A stretch of 10,142 bases of DNA from an uncultured Kouleothrix sp. (GTDB taxonomy: Bacteria > Chloroflexota > Chloroflexia > Chloroflexales > Roseiflexaceae): the NCBI GenBank assembly GCA_937858455.1, contig CALLYN010000902.1, positions 1 through 10,142 of the forward strand. The letters run 5' to 3'. The notes beneath the pieces are model-generated. The model was not told where the DNA came from. It ran no database searches and saw only the letters and a program-made list of their open reading frames with translations. A program made the position numbers and the translations under genes. Below, in pieces: positions 336 through 8,520 of this stretch. Position 1 is the stretch's first letter. Every line of letters begins with the position of its first letter.

Positions 336-3287
336 ATGCCAAACCAACGGCCGCTGCTGGCTCTGATCGACGGCCACGCCCTGGCATTTCGCGCGTTCCA
401 CGCGCTCTCCAAGGTTGGCCTGCGCGCCTCGACGGGCGAGCCGACATACGCCGTGTACGGGTTTATCTCGATCTTGCTCAACGCCATCCACGAGCACCAC
501 CCGCGCTATGTCGCGGTGTCGTTCGACATTGGCCGCACCTTCCGCGACGACCTGTACGCCGAGTACAAGGCCGGCCGCGCCGAAACGCCCGACGAATTCC
601 ATCCGCAGCTCGCGCGCATCCGCCAGCTGCTCGCCGCCTTCAACATCCCGATCTACACCTACGATGGCTACGAGGCCGACGACGTGATCGGCACGCTGGC
701 GCGCCAGGCCAGCGCCGCCGGCGTCGATACCATGATCCTCACCGGCGACACCGACACGCTCCAGCTGGTCGACGACCACGTCAGCGTGCTGCTGGCCAAC
801 CCGTACGTGCAGAAGGGCAAGAACACCGTGCTGTACGACGAGGCCCAGGTGCGCGAGCGCTACAACGGCCTGGCGCCGTCGCAGCTGGCCGACCTGCGCG
901 GCCTCAAGGGCGACACTTCCGACAACATCCCCGGTGTCAAGGGCATTGGCGAGGCCGGCGCAATCGCGCTGCTCAAGCAGTTCGGCACCGTCGAGAACCT
1001 GTACGACAACCTTGGCGAGGCGCCGAATCGCTTCAAGAAGGCGCTCGACGGCCAGCGCGAGGCCGCCGAGTTTAGCAAACGCCTGGCGACGATCGTCTGC
1101 GATGTGCCGGTGACGCTCGAGTTGCGCGCCGCCGAGCTGCGCGACTACGACCGCAGCCAGGTGATCGCGCTGTTTCAGGAGCTTGAGTTCGGCGCAAGCC
1201 TGGTGAAGCGCCTGCCCACCACCGGCAGCGCGATCGAAGAGGCCGAGCTGCCGGGAACCACGAACGCCGAAGAACCGAAGACCAAGGACGAAGAAAGCGC
1301 TTCGTCCTTGGTCTTCGGCCCTTCTTCGCCGTCTGCCGACGGCAGCCCGCAGCAGCTGGCGATGTTCGACATGCCGGCGGTGCCGCAGGCCCGCCCGGCG
1401 GCGCTGGCGAGCATGCCCGGCGCCGATGGCCGCACCGCGCTCGGCGACTACCGCGCCGTCACCAGCGAAGCGCAGCTCGCCGAGGTGCTGGCCGCGCTCG
1501 GCCAGAGCGCCGGCTTCGCCTTCGACACCGAGACGCTCGGCACGCGCGCGGTGCAGGACGACATCGTCGGCATCTCGGTGGCGGTGGCGCCGGGCCAGGC
1601 GTGGTACATCCCATTCGGCCACCGCGGCGCCGAGCAGCTGCCGCGCGAGCGCGTGCTCGGCGCGCTGCGGCCGTTCTTCGCCGACGCGCGCCTGCCCAAG
1701 TATGGCCACAACGCCAAGTTCGACATCGAAACGCTTGAGCACGCCGGCGTGCCGGTCGAGGGCGTCGTGTTCGACACCATGCTGGCGGCCGCGCTGCTCG
1801 ACAAGCGCCGCGGCCTGAAAGAGCTGTCGTTCTACGAGCTGAAGCTGCCCGAGCCGATGACCGACATCGAAGAGCTGATCGGCAAGCGCGGCAAGAACCA
1901 GCTGACCTTCGCCGACGTGCCGCTCGACGCCGCCACGCCCTACGCCGCCGCCGACGCCGACATGACCATGCGGCTGGTGCAGGCGCTGGCGCCGCAGCTG
2001 GCCGAGCAGGCCAAAGTCGCTGAGCTGTACCAGAAGCTCGAGATCCCGCTCATCCCCGTGCTCGTGCGCATGGAGCAGGCCGGCATCGGGCTCGACGTGC
2101 CGTTTATGCGCGAGCTTGGCCGGCGCATGGGCGACGACCTGGTGCGGCTCGAAGACCAGATCTACGGCTTCAACGACGGCCTGAAGTTCAATATCAACTC
2201 GGGCGATCAGCTGAGCGACCTGCTGTTCAACAAGCTGGGCATGCCCACCGCCGGCCTCGAAAAGACCAAGACCGGCCGCTACTCGCTCACGGCCAGCGTG
2301 CTCGAAAACCTCGCCGGCAAAAGCCAGCACCCGGTGATCGACCTGATCTTGCGCTACCGCCAGCTCACCAAGCTCAAGTCGACGTATGTCGACGCGCTGC
2401 CCGAGCTGGTGAATCCCGAGACCGGGCGCGTGCATACCACCTACAGCCAGCTTGGCGCCGCCACCGGCAGGCTCTCGTCCAACGACCCGAACCTGCAAAA
2501 CATCCCGACGCGCACCGACGAGGGCCGCGAGATCCGGCGCGGCTTTGTGGCCACGCCCGGCTGCGTGTTCGTCGCCGCCGACTACTCGCAGATCGAGCTG
2601 CGCGTGCTGGCACATATCACCCAGGATCCGAACCTGGTGCAGGCCTTCAGGGAAGACCAGGACATCCACGCCGCCACTGCCGCGCAGCTGTTCGGCGTGC
2701 CGATCGAGAAGGTCGATAAGAACCAGCGGCGGATCGCAAAAACCACGGTCTTCGGCGTGATCTACGGCATCAGCGCGTTTGGCCTGGCGGCGCGCACCAG
2801 CCTGAGCCGCAGCGAGGCCCAGCAGCTGATCGACGCGCTGTTCGCGCGCTTCCCCGGCCTGCGCGACTACATCGACAGCACGCTTGAAGAGGGCCGCCGC
2901 GAGGGCTTTGTGCGCTCGCTGTTCGGCCGCCGGCGCTACATGCCCGATCTACGCACCAGCGGCCCGCGCCGCCAGGCCGCCGAGCGCGAGGCGATCAACG
3001 CGCCCATCCAGGCCACCGCCGCCGACATCATGAAGATCGCCATGATCCGCGTCGACGACGAGCTGCGCCGCCGCAAGCTGGCCACGCGCATGCTGCTGCA
3101 GGTGCACGACGAGCTGATCTTCGAAGTGCCGCACGCCGAGGTCGACGAGGTTGTGGCGCTGGTGTGCGACCACATGCAGGGCGCGTATGCGCTGCGCAGC
3201 GAGAAGACCGGCAACGAAGTGCCGCTCAAGGTCGACCTCGAGATGGGGCCGAACTGGGAAGAGATGCACGAGATCGCGAACAGCTAA
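336..3287 (+). CDS. polA: DNA polymerase I with 5' nuclease, 3'-5' exonuclease and polymerase domains
   Basis: This is a full-length family A polymerase of 983 residues, used for Okazaki fragment maturation and repair synthesis. The 5' nuclease domain covers about 1-300, with YEADDVIGTLA, ILTGDTDTLQ and LKGDTSDNIPGVKGIG. The 3'-5' exonuclease domain (about 375-560) keeps its acidic set: FDTET (D397, E399), HNAKFD and YAAAD. Proofreading therefore looks active, unlike in Taq polymerase. The polymerase domain has motif A DYSQIELR (D749), motif B RRIAKTTVFGVIYG (K802) and motif C VHDE (924-926). Motif B has V-F-G where E. coli and Taq have N-F-G. The start ATG is preceded by AGAGGTGA at 325-332. 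The linker between nuclease and Klenow portions carries a palindromic insertion at about residues 311-332 (listed separately). It appears to be a single-gene transcript, followed by a 409-bp gap. Confidence 0.97.
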   Translation: MPNQRPLLALIDGHALAFRAFHALSKVGLRASTGEPTYAVYGFISILLNAIHEHHPRYVAVSFDIGRTFRDDLYAEYKAGRAETPDEFHPQLARIRQLLAAFNIPIYTYDGYEADDVIGTLARQASAAGVDTMILTGDTDTLQLVDDHVSVLLANPYVQKGKNTVLYDEAQVRERYNGLAPSQLADLRGLKGDTSDNIPGVKGIGEAGAIALLKQFGTVENLYDNLGEAPNRFKKALDGQREAAEFSKRLATIVCDVPVTLELRAAELRDYDRSQVIALFQELEFGASLVKRLPTTGSAIEEAELPGTTNAEEPKTKDEESASSLVFGPSSPSADGSPQQLAMFDMPAVPQARPAALASMPGADGRTALGDYRAVTSEAQLAEVLAALGQSAGFAFDTETLGTRAVQDDIVGISVAVAPGQAWYIPFGHRGAEQLPRERVLGALRPFFADARLPKYGHNAKFDIETLEHAGVPVEGVVFDTMLAAALLDKRRGLKELSFYELKLPEPMTDIEELIGKRGKNQLTFADVPLDAATPYAAADADMTMRLVQALAPQLAEQAKVAELYQKLEIPLIPVLVRMEQAGIGLDVPFMRELGRRMGDDLVRLEDQIYGFNDGLKFNINSGDQLSDLLFNKLGMPTAGLEKTKTGRYSLTASVLENLAGKSQHPVIDLILRYRQLTKLKSTYVDALPELVNPETGRVHTTYSQLGAATGRLSSNDPNLQNIPTRTDEGREIRRGFVATPGCVFVAADYSQIELRVLAHITQDPNLVQAFREDQDIHAATAAQLFGVPIEKVDKNQRRIAKTTVFGVIYGISAFGLAARTSLSRSEAQQLIDALFARFPGLRDYIDSTLEEGRREGFVRSLFGRRRYMPDLRTSGPRRQAAEREAINAPIQATAADIMKIAMIRVDDELRRRKLATRMLLQVHDELIFEVPHAEVDEVVALVCDHMQGAYALRSEKTGNEVPLKVDLEMGPNWEEMHEIANS
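1265..1330. repeat. In-frame palindromic insertion element inside polA
   Basis: A perfect 19-bp inverted repeat (CCGAAGACCAAGGACGAAG at 1275-1293, reverse complement at 1300-1318) surrounds a 6-nt loop. Imperfect pairing extends outward through GCCGAAGAA on the left and TTCTTCGCC on the right. Read in the polA frame it gives PKTKDEESASSLVFG, from residue 314 on. It sits in the flexible joint between the 5' nuclease and Klenow portions, where extra residues should be tolerated. It shares sequence and peptide with the insertion in trpC at 6690-6757. The boundaries are estimates. Confidence 0.75.
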
Positions 3288-3696
3288 TACCAGCTCGTTT
3301 CATCACACGAGAAACGCGGTGCCCTCCCGCGTGGCAGGTTTGGCGGGCGCAAGCCCTCCCACATCACTCTTTTTTGGCTGGTCGCGGCCACCGGCGTGGC
3401 CGCGACCAGCCAAAAAGGAAGTTTTCGGCGGCGGCAAAGCTGCCCCGAACCTGCACCATACAGCAGCCCTGCGCCACACGAGAATCCTACACACCCTCCC
3501 AACTGTTCCGCGTATCCGCGCCGCCCGCCCGCCCGTTATATCTACAGCTACGCAGGCACGCTGCGCTCCAGCCGTCGTGTCGGGTTGGAACGCGGCACGG
3601 TGTCTTTCGCATCGTCTTCGCCAGCTACATCCGACAACCGCATACATCCAGCCCGGCCACGTCGCCGGCGCTGCTGAAGAGACATCGAGGTATGCC
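3288..3696. other. 409-bp intergenic region between polA and the VOC gene
   Basis: No convincing gene is present. The region holds a weak stem just after the polA stop (CGTTTC 3296-3301 with GAAACG 3311-3316), then a GC-rich stretch with GGGCGCAAGCCC, then the hairpin-plus-tail repeat at 3371-3458. The remainder (3460-3680) is C-rich and featureless. A weak A/T patch, GTTATATCT near 3535, could be a -10 box for the VOC gene, but I would not rely on it. The frame of the VOC gene stays open back into polA (from 3151), but that stretch does not resemble coding sequence. Confidence 0.6.
3371..3458. repeat. Hairpin-plus-tail intergenic repeat, copy 1
   Basis: A perfect 21-bp stem has arms at 3371-3391 and 3396-3416 and a 4-nt CGGC loop. 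The left arm starts with TTTTT and the right arm ends with AAAAA. A tail at 3412-3458 follows (AAAAAGGAAG, then TTCGG..., GCAAAGC, GCCCCGAACC, CACCA). The tail can itself fold as TTCGG/CCGAA with a small GCAAAGC apex. The tail recurs at 8477-8520, whereas the stem sequence does not. The U-rich part is on the 5' arm, so on the + strand this is not a standard terminator, although it could stop transcripts from either side. Confidence 0.75.
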
Positions 3697-3795
3697 ATGA
3701 ACGCATCGCACTCAGTACTCGATCAGATCGACCCTGTGTCGTTGCCGAAGTATGCTATGATTGCATCGCACCCCTTCCTGAAGCAGATCGATCAC
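3686..3795. repeat. Tandem 60-bp-spaced duplication of the VOC gene start region
   Basis: Two imperfect direct copies begin near 3686 and 3746, each about 45-50 nt long. Over the 40 nt from 3691 and the 40 nt from 3751, 30 positions agree, and 17 of the first 20. Each copy has a purine-rich Shine-Dalgarno (GAGG or GAAG), the same 6-nt spacing and an ATG. The encoded peptides are [14 protein letters not shown] and [14 protein letters not shown]. Only the second copy has the family-typical IDHVG strand. Confidence 0.8.
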
Positions 3796-4683
3796 GTTGG
3801 CATTCGCGCCGACGACGCGCTGCGGCTGTTTCAATTCCTGACGCAAGCGCTGGGGTTTCCCGCCGTGGCGCCGTTCGCCGAGTACGCCGGCTATAGCTCC
3901 GGGCGCGTCTCGCTCGGCAACATGGCGCTCGAGGTGATCAGGCTCGGCACGGCGGCACGCTCGGCGCTGGCCCAGTCGAACCCCGCGCACTACCAACTCC
4001 TGAGCTTTCTCTCGCTCTCGCGCCCGCTGACGCGGCTGCTGCCCGAGCTTGAGCGGCGGCACCTGCGCCACAGCGGCGTCATCCCATTCTTCACGCCCGC
4101 CCCCGAGGGCCAGGAGCCGATCAAGCTGTGGGAGCGCATCTACCTGGGCGATCTGCTGGGCGAGAATGTCTGGCAGCGCGCGCTGTTCTCGCTGATGCGC
4201 CAGGCGCCCAGTACACCGGCCGGGCAGGCGCGCCTGAGCAGCCGGATCGCCCACGCACTGCTGGCGCACGCCTCGGGGCGCAGCATGCTCTCGCTCACCG
4301 GCTACTACCACAATGGCGCCAGCCTCGTCGCCGACGGCCAGGGCATGGCGCACCACCGCCACGGCGGGCGGATCGGCCTCGAAGGCGTGAGCGAGGTGGT
4401 GATCGGCGTGCCAAACCTGATTAAATCCACCGGCGATTGGGTGCAGCTGCTGCAGCCGCTGGTGCCCGGCGACGACGGCCTGTGGCGGGTTGGCGCGGGG
4501 CCGGCCATCCGGCTGCGCACCATGGCCCGGCACTGCATCGCCACGCTGGTGCTGAAGGTCGCCTCGCTTGAGCAGGCCCAGCGCGGGCTGCGCGCGCTGC
4601 ACGCCCCGATGCAGGTCTCGTTCGACCGCGTCTCCTTCTCGATCCCCGGCTCGCCCGGCGTGACATTCGAGCTGACCGAGTAG
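3697..4683 (+). CDS. Two-domain VOC (glyoxalase/dioxygenase fold) family protein
   Basis: The product has 328 residues. The first VOC-like module begins at about residue 30 with [18 protein letters not shown] (H33, the usual first metal-ligand position) and continues to [12 protein letters not shown] (E79). A second module begins at about 227 with [14 protein letters not shown] and ends with the typical closing strand [12 protein letters not shown]. Such proteins bind a divalent metal and act as glyoxalases, epimerases, dioxygenases or resistance proteins; the substrate here cannot be told. The start ATG has GAGG at 3687-3690, 6 nt upstream. A second in-frame ATG at 3757, with GAAG at 3747-3750, lies in the second copy of a 60-nt tandem duplication. 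Starting there would give 308 residues and would lose nothing of the fold. The gene stands alone after a long gap; the glycosyltransferase promoter begins 7 bp after its stop. Confidence 0.8.
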
Positions 4684-4699
4684 CGAGATATGTTACAAT
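4672..4699 (+). promoter_or_regulatory. Extended -10 promoter for the glycosyltransferase gene
   Basis: TGTTACAAT at 4691-4699 matches the extended -10 form TGnTAnAAT. CTGACC at 4672-4677 is a 4-of-6 match to the -35 consensus with a 16-bp spacer, and overlaps the end of the VOC gene. Transcription would start near 4706, which favours translation from the ATG at 4751 over the upstream GTG at 4706. Confidence 0.55.
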
Positions 4700-4750
4700 G
4701 CGTGGGTGCTGATGGCCGTGTATGACAAGACGCGCAGGGGATCAGGGCTC

Positions 4751-5764
4751 ATGCAAATCGTCGACCCGCTGGAACAGATCGTGCCGCGCGATCGCGCTGC
4801 CCACCAGCCTGCCCGGCCGGTGATCTCGATCGTCGGGCCGGTGTACAACGAAGAGGCGCTGCTCGAAGAGTTCTGCGACCGAACGATCGCCGTGCTTGAA
4901 GCCTTCGGCGAGCCGTTCGAGCTAGTGCTGGTGAACGACGGCTCGCGCGACCGCTCGCCCGAGATCCTGCGCCGGGTGCACCAGCGCGACGCGCGCGTCA
5001 AGGTGATCAACTTCTCGCGCAACTTTGGCCTGCAGGCCGCGCTCACGGCCGGGCTCGACCACGCGCGCGGCGACGCGATTGTGGTGATGGATACCGACCT
5101 GCAGGATCCGCCCGAAGTGGTGCCGCGCCTGGTCGAGCAGTGGCGCGCGGGCTACCAGATGGTGTACGCCCAGCGCGCCGAGCGCGCCGGCGAGACGTGG
5201 TTCAAGAAAGCCACCGCCTCGGCATTCTACCGCCTGATTGCCAAGATCACGAACATCCAGATTCCCGTCGACACCGGCGAGTTCCGCCTGATGGATCGCA
5301 AGGTGGTCGACGCGATCATCCAGATGCGCGAGTACAACCGGTTTATGCGCGGCCTGTCGGTGTGGGTCGGCTACCGCCAGACGGGCATCAGCTACGAGCG
5401 CGACGCGCGCAAGGCCGGCGAGACGAAGTTCTCGCTGAGCAAGATGGTGCGCCTGGCGCTCGACGGCATCACTAGCTTCTCGTACCTGCCGCTGCAGCTG
5501 GCCACCTACTTCGGCTTTATCGTGGCGCTGATCAGCCTGATCTTTCTGCTGGCCGTGATCGTGATGCGGCTGGCCAACCCCAGCAATCCACCATTCTACG
5601 GCCAGGCCTCGACGCTGGTGAGCGTGCTGTTCATCGGCAGCATCCAGCTGATCTTCCTCGGCATCATCGGCGAGTACCTCGGCCGGATCTACGACGAAGT
5701 CAAGCGCCGCCCGCTGTATATCGTGGCCGAGGAGCTTGGCTTCGAGCAGCCGCCGGAGGCGTAG
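4751..5764 (+). CDS. GT2 family membrane-anchored glycosyltransferase (GtrB/ArnC/DPM1-like)
   Basis: The product has 337 residues and probably transfers a sugar from a nucleotide donor to undecaprenyl phosphate at the cytoplasmic face of the membrane. The GT-A domain shows [14 protein letters not shown] (25-38), [13 protein letters not shown] (D63), [19 protein letters not shown] and the metal-binding [10 protein letters not shown] (D114, D116). [10 protein letters not shown] and [12 protein letters not shown] follow, typical of this subfamily. Two membrane helices lie at about 252-275 and 286-310, then [20 protein letters not shown], as in GtrB and ArnC. I chose the ATG at 4751, with AGGGG 10 nt upstream, because it lies downstream of the predicted transcription start. 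In-frame GTG 4706 and ATG 4712 are alternatives. The GNAT gene follows after 39 bp and is probably in the same transcript. The sugar and pathway (glycolipid, cell-surface polymer) are not determined. Confidence 0.92.
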
Positions 5765-5790
5765 CACGAGGCTGCCGGGTGCACGTCAGC

Positions 5791-5798
5791 AAGGAGGT
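5791..5798 (+). promoter_or_regulatory. Strong ribosome binding site that fixes the GNAT start
   Basis: AAGGAGGT is a perfect anti-Shine-Dalgarno match. It sits 5 nt before a GTG at 5804, which identifies that GTG as the start, since no in-frame ATG is nearby. Confidence 0.8.
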
Positions 5799-5803
5799 GC
5801 GCG

Positions 5804-6298
5804 GTGCCTACCCACAGGACGCCGACATTTGCGTTCATGGTCGCCGACGAGCTGCCCGAGCTGGCCGATATGATGCGGCGCAGCTTTCTGGCGGAGTTTC
5901 GGCGCGCCGAGGCCGCCGGCGAGGCCGAGCTGGCCCCGTACATGAGCAGCGACACCTTTTTCCACCGCTGGCTGTTTGGCTGCGTCGACATCGACCGCTA
6001 CACCATTCGCGACGGCGGCCAGGCGATCGTCGGCGGGATGGTCGTGTGGCGCTTCGAAGATGCCTACAACGTCCTCGGGCTGCTGTTCATCGACCCGGAC
6101 TGGCAGGACGCCGGGGTCGGCCGCCGCGCCTGGCAGTTCCTCGAGGCCACCTACCCCGACACGGCGCGCTGGAGCCTGCGCACCCCCACCTGGTCGGGGA
6201 AAAACCGCTACTTCTACGAGCGCGTCTGCGGCTTCCAGCGCGTGGGCGAGAGCCAGGGCCAGGCTGAGTATGAAAAAGTGCCGCGCGTGCTACAATAG
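5804..6298 (+). CDS. GNAT family N-acetyltransferase
   Basis: The product has 164 residues, begins with GTG and has the GNAT fold. Motif A is seen as LGLLFIDPDWQDAGVGRRAW (91-110), where Q101-D-A-G-V-G106 is the Q/RxxGxG/A acetyl-CoA pyrophosphate loop. Motif B follows with TPTWSGKNRYFYERVCGF (127-144), the usual N-x(3)-FYE-x(2)-GF ending. The protein would move an acetyl group from acetyl-CoA to an amine; the acceptor cannot be named. It lies 39 bp behind the glycosyltransferase with no terminator between them, so co-transcription is likely, and it might modify a related sugar or lipid. That functional link is inference only. Its last codons overlap the trpC promoter. Confidence 0.85.
   Translation: MPTHRTPTFAFMVADELPELADMMRRSFLAEFRRAEAAGEAELAPYMSSDTFFHRWLFGCVDIDRYTIRDGGQAIVGGMVVWRFEDAYNVLGLLFIDPDWQDAGVGRRAWQFLEATYPDTARWSLRTPTWSGKNRYFYERVCGFQRVGESQGQAEYEKVPRVLQ
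6288..6296 (+). promoter_or_regulatory. Extended -10 box for trpC overlapping the GNAT stop codon
   Basis: TGCTACAAT matches TGnTAnAAT, and its final T is the first base of the TAG stop of the upstream gene. The predicted transcription start, near 6303, leaves a leader of about 30 nt carrying GTGAGG at 6321-6326, the trpC ribosome binding site. No clear -35 is visible. The leader is too short for a classical trp attenuator. Confidence 0.55.
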
Positions 6299-6334
6299 CG
6301 CGCGACCGACCGCCATACCAGTGAGGCCACGCCG

Positions 6335-7219
6335 ATGACTGCTCAGGACGCGGGGACATTCCTGACCCGCATTTTAGATCACAAGCGCGCCGAGGTGGCG
6401 CTGCGCCGCGCCCAGGTGCCGCAGCACGAGCTGGTGGCGCGCATTGCCGCAGCTCCGCCCGTCCGCCCGCTCGACGCGGCGCTGCGCCGGCCGGGCAGCG
6501 TCGCGCTGATAGCCGAGGTAAAAAAGGCCTCGCCGTCGAAGGGCGTGCTGATCGAGAATTTCGACCCGCTGGCGCTGGCAGGCACCTACGCCGCGCACGG
6601 CGCCGCCGCGATCTCGGTGCTCACCGACGAGCAGTTCTTCCAGGGCAGCCTCGAATATCTGCAACAGATTCGTACACTCATGCAGCCGGCAAGCGACCAA
6701 AGACCAAAGACCAAAGAAGATTCTGCTCTTGGTTCTTTGTCGTTGGTTCTTCGTCCGGTTCCGCTGCTGCGCAAGGACTTCATCATCGACGCCTACCAGG
6801 TGTACGAGGCGCGCGCGCACGGCGCCGACGCGCTGCTGCTGATTGTGGCAGCGCTGGCCGACGCGCCGCTGCGCGAGCTGCTGGCGCTGACGCACGCCCT
6901 GGGCATGCAGGCGCTGGTCGAAGTACACGACGAGGCCGAGCTGGATCGAGCGCTGGCGGCCGGCGCGCGCGTGGTGGGCGTGAACAACCGCGACCTGCAC
7001 AGCTTTGTCACGTCGCTCGACACCACCCGGCGCGTGGCGGCGCGGCTGCCGGCCGCCGACCGGCCGCTGCTGGTGAGCGAGAGCGGCATCTTCACGCGCG
7101 AGCACGTCGCGCAGGTGCGCGACTGGGGCGCCGATGCCATTCTGGTGGGCGAGGCGCTGGTGAAATCGGCCGACATAGGCGCGCATGTGCGCGAGCTGGC
7201 CGGCATGGCGCGCTCGTAG
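6335..7219 (+). CDS. trpC: Indole-3-glycerol phosphate synthase with a peptide insertion
   Basis: This enzyme closes the ring of carboxyphenylaminodeoxyribulose phosphate to indole-3-glycerol phosphate in tryptophan synthesis, in the cytoplasm. The catalytic residues of the (beta/alpha)8 barrel are all visible: E61 and K63 in IAEVKKASPSKG, K147 in LLRKDFIID, E196 in LVEVHDE, N217-N218 in VGVNNRDL and E249 in SESGI. At 294 residues it is longer than the usual 255-270. The excess is an insertion at about residues 117-141, between helix 2 and strand 3. This lies on the side of the barrel away from the active site, so activity is probably kept. The insertion uses codons such as AGA, CCA, CTT, TTG and GAT that the rest of the gene avoids. 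The start ATG has GAGG 8 nt upstream. No other trp gene is in the window. Confidence 0.96.
   Translation: MTAQDAGTFLTRILDHKRAEVALRRAQVPQHELVARIAAAPPVRPLDAALRRPGSVALIAEVKKASPSKGVLIENFDPLALAGTYAAHGAAAISVLTDEQFFQGSLEYLQQIRTLMQPASDQRPKTKEDSALGSLSLVLRPVPLLRKDFIIDAYQVYEARAHGADALLLIVAALADAPLRELLALTHALGMQALVEVHDEAELDRALAAGARVVGVNNRDLHSFVTSLDTTRRVAARLPAADRPLLVSESGIFTREHVAQVRDWGADAILVGEALVKSADIGAHVRELAGMARS
6690..6757. repeat. In-frame palindromic insertion element inside trpC
   Basis: The left half contains GACCAAA three times in tandem (6695-6715). The right half contains TTGGTTCTTTGTC (6729-6741) and TTGGTTCTTCGTC (6743-6755). The halves are roughly inverted complements of each other around GAAGATTCTGCTC. 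Read in the trpC frame it gives PKTKEDSALGSLSLVL. The related TrpC proteins I know run straight from the helix into a V/L-P-V/L-LRKDF strand, so these residues look added. Sequence and peptide resemble the insertion in polA (1265-1330). The boundaries are estimates. Confidence 0.75.
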
Positions 7220-8387: not shown

Positions 8388-8520
8388 GTGTGCGGTTTTT
8401 CCGCGCGGAGCGCGGAAAAACCGCACACCGCTATCGATTGTGTGGCGCTGCGTGGCGAAGCCACGCAGCGCCACACAAAAAGAAATTCGGGAGCAGCGAA
8501 GCCGCCCCGAACCCCCACCA
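8388..8520. repeat. Hairpin-plus-tail intergenic repeat, copy 2 (two hairpins)
   Basis: Hairpin A is a perfect 19-bp stem (8388-8406 with 8410-8428, 3-nt loop). Hairpin B is a perfect 19-bp stem (8438-8456 with 8460-8478, GAA loop). A tail at 8477-8520 (AAAAAGAAA, TTCGGG, GCGAAGC, GCCCCGAACC, CACCA) matches the tail at 3412-3458 closely. As in copy 1, the tail starts within the A-run that ends the preceding stem. The stems of the two copies are unrelated in sequence. None has a downstream T-run. Confidence 0.75.

Follow-up and report, generated by a model that had tools for sequence, protein, structure and literature searches.

The window analysed here is a stretch of 10,142 nucleotides from an uncultured Kouleothrix sp. 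of the Chloroflexota (contig CALLYN010000902.1). It contains genes for DNA polymerase I (polA) and indole-3-glycerol phosphate synthase (trpC), identified by their NCBIfam labels, and translation of its open reading frames (ORFs) shows that both genes run uninterrupted across a short insert. The two inserts have DNA and peptide in common, as a first-pass annotation of the window had recognized, and the peptides are as quoted there: PKTKDEESASSLVFG in polA and PKTKEDSALGSLSLVL in trpC. We argue that they are probably gene-less members of a class of mobile hairpin elements that also includes the intervening sequences (IVSs) of rRNA.

Heptamer arms and coding capacity of the polA and trpC inserts

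Each insert consists of a tandem array of a 7-bp unit, (GACSAAR)n, followed by a short loop and then by an array of the complement, (YTTSGTC)n, and each lies in frame (Table 1). The inserts are therefore arrays of a heptamer on the left and of its complement on the right, and not copies of one conserved palindromic sequence. The polA insert folds with an energy of -53.2 kcal/mol (z = -9.1, 200 shuffles). The trpC insert forms a weak hairpin (z = -1.5): of 200 shuffles, 12 folded equally well, and the trpC case is accordingly based on heptamer content and on comparison with relatives rather than on folding.

The first-pass annotation had proposed that the complementary strand also reads open, and that the element could enter genes either way round. 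The minus strand of polA does encode GPKTKDEALSSSLVFG, within an 86-aa frame. The long minus-strand frame in trpC gives RQRTKSRIFFGLWSLVA, and the peptide SSLVFGLWSL that had been predicted there would fall in another minus-strand frame, which is not among the listed long ORFs. The idea of insertion either way round is right in a stronger form than claimed, because repeats of GACAAAR, GACCAAR and GACGAAR (six variants) contain zero stop codons in all six frames. As three units make 21 nt, every frame also yields the same cyclic 7-residue peptide.

Table 1 Positions of the host genes and their inserts in the window.
Feature	Position	Strand	Details
polA (DNA polymerase I) host gene	336..3287	+	Frame open across insert; NCBIfam
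polA hairpin insert	1269..1327	.	Left arm 1269-1293, loop 1294-1299, right arm 1300-1327 (3-nt bulge)
polA insert heptamers	1280-1293; complement 1300-1313		GACCAAG-GACGAAG; pattern matches
trpC (indole-3-glycerol phosphate synthase) host gene	6335..7219	+	Frame open across insert; NCBIfam
trpC insert	6695..6755	.	Left arm 3x GACCAAA 6695-6715, loop 6716-6727, right arm 6728-6755 of degenerate complementary units

Dispersal of the heptamer family and its insertions in conserved genes

The assembly that contains the window (G000; 5.14 Mb, 1123 contigs, 71.5% complete) has many further copies of the unit. Tandem pairs of the form GACNAARGACNAAR were matched 60 + 59 times genome-wide, with 100 of the 119 places listed, and the reversed control was matched 0 + 0 times. 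An alternative pattern, GACCAAN{0,30}TTGGTC, was too strict (4 + 4 matches versus 11 + 11 for its control) and was rejected. Defining a cluster as two adjacent units with at most one mismatch, we scanned 56 contigs (283 kb), of which 36 had been chosen for having matches, the window's own included, and 20 by number. The scan found 46 clusters, with zero in the 20 number-picked contigs (79 kb). Both orientations are present in 29 of the 46, and in all 29 the GAC arm comes first and the GTC arm last; three of these are repeated units. Some of the remaining 17 have a second arm that is more degenerate, and at least L062:7177 and L069:4458 resemble ordinary coding sequence.

Across 26 hairpins the arms contain about 1-6 units per side, and the order of the units differs between arms. 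The loops are 6-73 nt long and, in comparisons of pairs with loops longer than 8 nt, are unrelated past about ten bases. What had been described as one palindromic family is thus a dispersed family found in frame in unrelated genes, with no single fixed palindrome. The left arm of these gene-less hairpins, or minis, is purine-rich, and they hold no gene to set a direction. A reading in which selection within genes keeps T from the fourth base of the heptamer was dropped, as T is also zero there in all fetched genome contigs. In G000 some GACSAAR arms (at L011, L014, L015, L019, L068, L072 and L077) are enclosed by a palindrome of ~120 bp that resembles a miniature inverted-repeat transposable element (MITE), with outer repeats like CAGGCTAYCRCANSTTCGAWCCGRGTTT; a GGCGCTG loop is often central in this palindrome, and some copies are in tandem.

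At least one match to the tandem pair occurs in 69 of 120 genomes, G000 included, in most of them about as often as the control does. The family is clear in the sister genome G001 (31/33 matches, control 1/2) and in G005 (13/11, control 0/0), and G080 is a more distant case (9/7, control 1/0). In G004 it is the reversed control pattern, RAANCAGRAANCAG, that is abundant (45 + 48), which suggests a different heptamer family in that genome.

In the window's genome, 18 GACSAAR insertions lie within 14 conserved, Pfam-supported genes: polA, trpC, carB (2), uvrA (2), a dinG-like gene (2), a chorismate-binding gene of the trpE type, a moeA-like gene, a leuA-type gene, mnmA, gidA, RACo, valS (2), an ABC-F-type gene and an ABC transporter gene, where names beyond the Pfam and NCBIfam labels are our own reading. 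For seven of the 18, a single arm is detected at the strict cluster setting and the other arm at one mismatch per unit. Alignment of 14 of the 18 sites (those in polA, moeA, RACo and the ABC transporter being left out) with one to four relatives each (G001, G005, G006 and G013) shows that the insert is missing from the relatives at all 14. The trpC insert is likewise missing from 25 of 25 trpC loci of other genomes compared. The loops of relatives sometimes hold other palindromes, such as the GGGTCAG-type inverted arrays seen by eye in the valS and trpE loops of G005, and inserts of the window's type interrupt a glycosyl hydrolase 2 gene in G001 and a CobN-type gene in G005.

One explanation for these inserts is local repeat expansion, in which slippage and template switching at small hairpins would enlarge tolerant loops with no mobile element involved. 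It would account for the varying number of arm units, the long heptamer arrays at L009 and L017, the differences in loop sequence between copies and the variable length of the corresponding loops in relatives. However, dozens of unrelated places share the GACSAAR unit and the control is zero, which requires dispersal from a common source, and a whole 428-bp unit has been inserted between identical 60-bp flanks, albeit in a cyanobacterial relative and not in the window's genome (described below). We therefore regard local expansion as improbable.

IVP genes between inverted arrays of short tandem repeats

A link between the minis and a gene-bearing element is suggested by carB. The carB loop is occupied by a GACSAAR hairpin in G000; in G001, of the same genus, it contains a longer insert in which GGGGTCT-type arms surround a gene of PF05635 (23S_rRNA_IVP, also S23), the family of four-helix-bundle proteins, read in another frame. 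PF05635 was found in seven of seven relatives searched. Within the class it occurs in 57 of 101 genomes; among genomes accessed via named loci, which by title are mostly Bacteroidota and Acidobacteriota, it occurs in 18 of 32. These genes have been puzzling since their discovery in rRNA IVSs, and we know of no function for them and no way in which they move.

To score arms, the 300 bp upstream of each IVP domain were aligned with the reverse complement of the 350 bp downstream, and scores of at least 30 were counted. For the window's class, 52 loci were taken (all 22 matches of the seven-relative search and 30 from a longer list, not a random draw; one with short flanks was dropped), and inverted arms were found at 38 of 51, with a far-flank control of 1/46 and eight loci scoring in direct orientation. 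Named genomes of other groups gave 15 of 27 (30 loci, again from a longer list and not randomly drawn, of which three without a domain match were dropped), with a control of 0/24 and four in direct orientation. On plasmids, for which 15 of 29 records were used, the result was 14 of 15, with the remaining locus scoring 29, a control of 1/15 and two in direct orientation. Pooled, inverted arms flank the IVP gene at 67 of 93 loci in several phyla, nearly always as 7-9-bp units, and the flank controls give 2 of 85; the far flanks are probably mostly coding and the near flanks mostly intergenic, making the controls an imperfect match. Of the 22 loci from the seven-relative search, 15 scored above all 100 shuffles of their own flanks. 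In these counts L277 and L284 are one gene, L294 and L295 are near-identical, and a few long alignments (L314, L322) do not represent clean arrays.

The unit in the better arm is 7 bp at 33 of the 38 loci of the window's class and 8 bp at five; elsewhere it is 7, 8 and 9 bp at seven, five and three of 15 loci. The 9-bp unit (of the GTCTAGCGA type) occurs at three of four loci (L325, L342, L343) from a pair of Acidobacteriota genomes with 13 (G160) and 17 (G161) IVP matches. With plasmid loci excluded, the 5' arm contains more G than C at 49 of 53 loci. Arm sequence itself varies from copy to copy even within one genome. The arms nearest to those of the window belong to an IVP gene of G080, which lies between GATGAAR arms, one base off the window's unit, in a genome that also has GACGAAR hairpins elsewhere. 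On an Azospirillum plasmid the arms are GACAGAG/GACGGAG. Four IVP elements (L281, L354, L362 and L358) are cas-linked, a possible preferred site: three share a cas6-cas4 junction, which we read from the sequence in G080 and which is annotated in Anabaena sp. 90 and Pseudanabaena, and the fourth lies between cas10 and cmr3 in Picosynechococcus.

Evidence for movement comes from cyanobacterial plasmids rather than from the window's species. Near-identical plasmids of Trichormus (L367) and Nostoc linckia (L368) show a filled and an empty version of one site: the 428-bp IVP element is flanked by the 5-bp repeat GTAAT, and the 60 bp to either side of it are identical in the two plasmids. Two Nostoc plasmids have IVP elements at neighbouring junctions, each site being empty in the other plasmid. 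In one Nostoc plasmid family, gene-less AGGAGTC hairpins, some of them nested, occupy one place in L372, L373, L374, L379 and L380 that is empty in L375, and the same heptamers border nearby IVP elements. At the Trichormus site, plasmid C052 pE (L371) retains heptamers together with a fragment of the start of an IVP gene, as judged by eye.

The target-site duplications that the first-pass annotation had suggested looking for proved inconsistent. No transposase was identified, and no search aimed at one was made. A 5-bp repeat was seen in two of 15 junction comparisons (one filled site against two empty ones), and repeats of 3 and 2 bp once each. At ten junctions, most of them in diverged sequence, 2-28 bp appear to have been deleted, and the last pair (Anabaena-Dolichospermum) could not be aligned and was set aside. 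A fixed duplication was expected and was not found among these cyanobacterial relatives; the polA and trpC sites were not assessed. Irregular junctions of this sort would be more in keeping with end joining or target-primed synthesis than with a DDE transposase.

These results bear on a second explanation, in which the two kinds of element only look alike: the GACSAAR hairpins would be ordinary MITEs, or repetitive extragenic palindromic (REP) sequences, moved by a transposase, and IVP genes would be framed separately because heptamers are insertion hot spots. The copies in G000 that lie within the MITE-like palindrome, with its long outer inverted repeats, would fit this, as would the lack of an IVP gene in that genome. 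Yet IVP arms are inverted on both sides and follow the strand rule of a G-rich 5' arm, one Nostoc plasmid family has heptamers common to gene-less hairpins and IVP elements, and another plasmid combines heptamers with an IVP gene fragment, and we consider it unlikely that the resemblance is coincidental.

Eight IVP copies, two of them near-identical, lie inside host ORFs that are open across the element: carB (L274), Eco57I-type methylases (L271, L294/L295, L311, L329) and DUF1156 methyltransferases (L313, L318). A ninth long frame, at L279, ends at the element and was excluded. The host frame is +2 relative to the IVP frame in eight of eight, and this frame contains 0 stops versus 13.0 expected from synonymous shuffles. 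Because the eight were selected for openness, the fairer figure is that for all tested IVP copies, in which the +2 frame is open in 9 of 73 versus ~2.1 expected.

Features of other kinds are also present in the window. By eye, there are strong intergenic hairpins of a different kind at ~3370-3416 and 8389-8478 (arm pairs GGCTGGTCGCGGCCAC...GTGGCCGCGACCAGCC, GGTTTTTCCGCG...CGCGGAAAAACC and TGTGTGGCGCTGCGTGGC...GCCACGCAGCGCCACACA), both followed by a similar stretch with GCCCCGAACC, and a degenerate direct duplication of ~60-70 bp (GTATGCCATGAACGCATCGCACTC / GTATGCTATGATTGCATCGCACCC) at ~3690-3790, near the beginning of the gene ending at 4683.

Proposed mechanism and comparison with known systems

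We propose that in the full element a 23S_rRNA_IVP gene would be framed by inverted arrays, one on each side, of a 7-9-bp tandem repeat, and that the window's genome has amplified a gene-less version with the unit GACSAAR, the minis and the IVP elements presumably sharing both ancestry and machinery. DNA elements with hairpin ends, whether or not they carry the IVP gene, would insert at many places with small, irregular changes to the target, and their arm units may be gained and lost by slippage. Copies within genes would persist if they span a whole number of codons and lie in a protein loop, because the repeat is stop-free in every frame and encodes a short polar peptide; the inserts are presumably translated rather than removed from the RNA. 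As the only gene seen in the elements, the IVP gene encodes the first candidate for a mobility protein, which might act as an accessory to an enzyme supplied in trans. It may resemble the Avd protein of diversity-generating retroelements.

Several observations weigh against placing the window inserts in this class. No PF05635 gene was found in G000, at 71.5% completeness, and a regular-expression scan of the fetched IVP loci returned no GACSAAR pair and one related array (L281). The trpC hairpin is weak, the minis have unrelated loops, unlike copies of one ordinary non-autonomous element, and the loops that hold insertions are length-variable among relatives anyway, so that they are possibly just tolerant places. 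The arm rule is not universal, with 26 of 93 IVP loci under the threshold (some, such as L274 and L275, are armed by eye) and 14 of 93 also scoring at least 30 in direct orientation, and the match of the flank controls is imperfect. The junctions are inconsistent, and a comparable family of Xanthomonas heptamers is described as generally not associated with mobile elements (PMC4692102).

A broader version of the proposal is more speculative, and we hold it as a possibility that is rather doubtful. It envisages a phylum-spanning class of elements whose ends are written anew, in the fashion of telomeres, as 7-9-nt tandem repeats on both ends of the cargo, with a unit length that leans on the lineage and with the IVP pentamer serving as an accessory of a polymerase in trans. 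rRNA IVSs and coding palindromes would be footprints of this activity, and some full elements within genes would be read in two frames, one for the IVP protein and the other, at +2, for the host.

The placement of IVP genes between inverted arrays of short tandem repeats, seen outside rRNA in several phyla and with both filled and empty sites, makes these genes testable as mobile elements. It also provides a possible origin for coding palindromes and for the dispersed heptamers noted in several bacteria, and it points to a way in which core enzymes may gain peptides from selfish DNA and stay intact. In the one open literature library covered (preprints excluded, many journals absent), we found no report that generally links S23/IVP genes to inverted heptamer arrays; the report on the Coxiella IVS notes direct heptamers.

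Among known systems, REP and MITE sequences resemble the minis in being short dispersed palindromes without a transposase of their own; they differ in that the minis have no fixed terminal sequence and no fixed target duplication in the relatives examined. The first-pass annotation had drawn an analogy with Rickettsia palindromic elements (RPEs), which are described as elements of ~150 bp, in ten families, that lie in frame in unrelated genes (PMC10969869). The analogy holds for this in-frame lifestyle, here with 18 insertions in 14 genes, but not for make-up, since the RPE is described as a conserved element and only the 7-bp unit recurs here, with likely gene-bearing relatives. Descent of the inserts from a single ancestral coding palindrome related to the Rickettsia and Wolbachia elements would explain their presence in many unrelated genes; judged against the published description of RPEs, the unrelated loops and the lack of conserved sequence past the heptamer make such an origin highly improbable.

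Dispersed heptamers are described from other bacteria. The TAACTGA repeats of Beggiatoaceae occur in many dispersed tandem copies (PMC4679880) and differ in being direct sets nearly throughout (169 direct, one indirect), with no gene cargo noted in the account of these repeats. The GGGAATC repeats of Xanthomonas are dispersed, G-rich tandem heptamers with 70 and 75 convergent inverted array pairs, and similar repeats are known from Nostoc (PMC4692102). The repeats are described as mostly intergenic, with quadruplexes discussed, and the main text of that report names neither S23, IVP nor helix bundles. The inverted pairs look like the architecture seen here, and the same genus holds the nearest solved IVP structure, 2gsc (XCC0516).

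The first-pass annotation knew of no described family that matched the inserts, and the closest match we found is the rRNA IVS/S23 type, reached through the IVP-bearing elements. IVSs lie in helices of 23S rRNA and are excised by RNase III, and in Coxiella tandem heptamers, GACAGAT, stand just upstream of the S23p ORF in two or three sets, depending on the strain (PMC4990558). Their origin is recorded there as unclear, with transposition remnants suggested earlier. The IVSs of Coxiella and Leptospira share with the elements described here the complementary arms that border the element, an S23-family gene in the loop and heptamers beside the ORF. In the window inserts, heptamer arms are present in both genes, and complementary terminal arms are strong in polA and weak in trpC. 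The location differs, as IVSs lie in 23S rRNA and the elements here lie in protein genes and intergenic sequence, with no Rfam match in the window, and the polA and trpC inserts, with loops of 6 and 12 nt, hold no S23/IVP gene. That their likely longer relatives carry the gene of rRNA IVSs would join two puzzles that have so far been separate.

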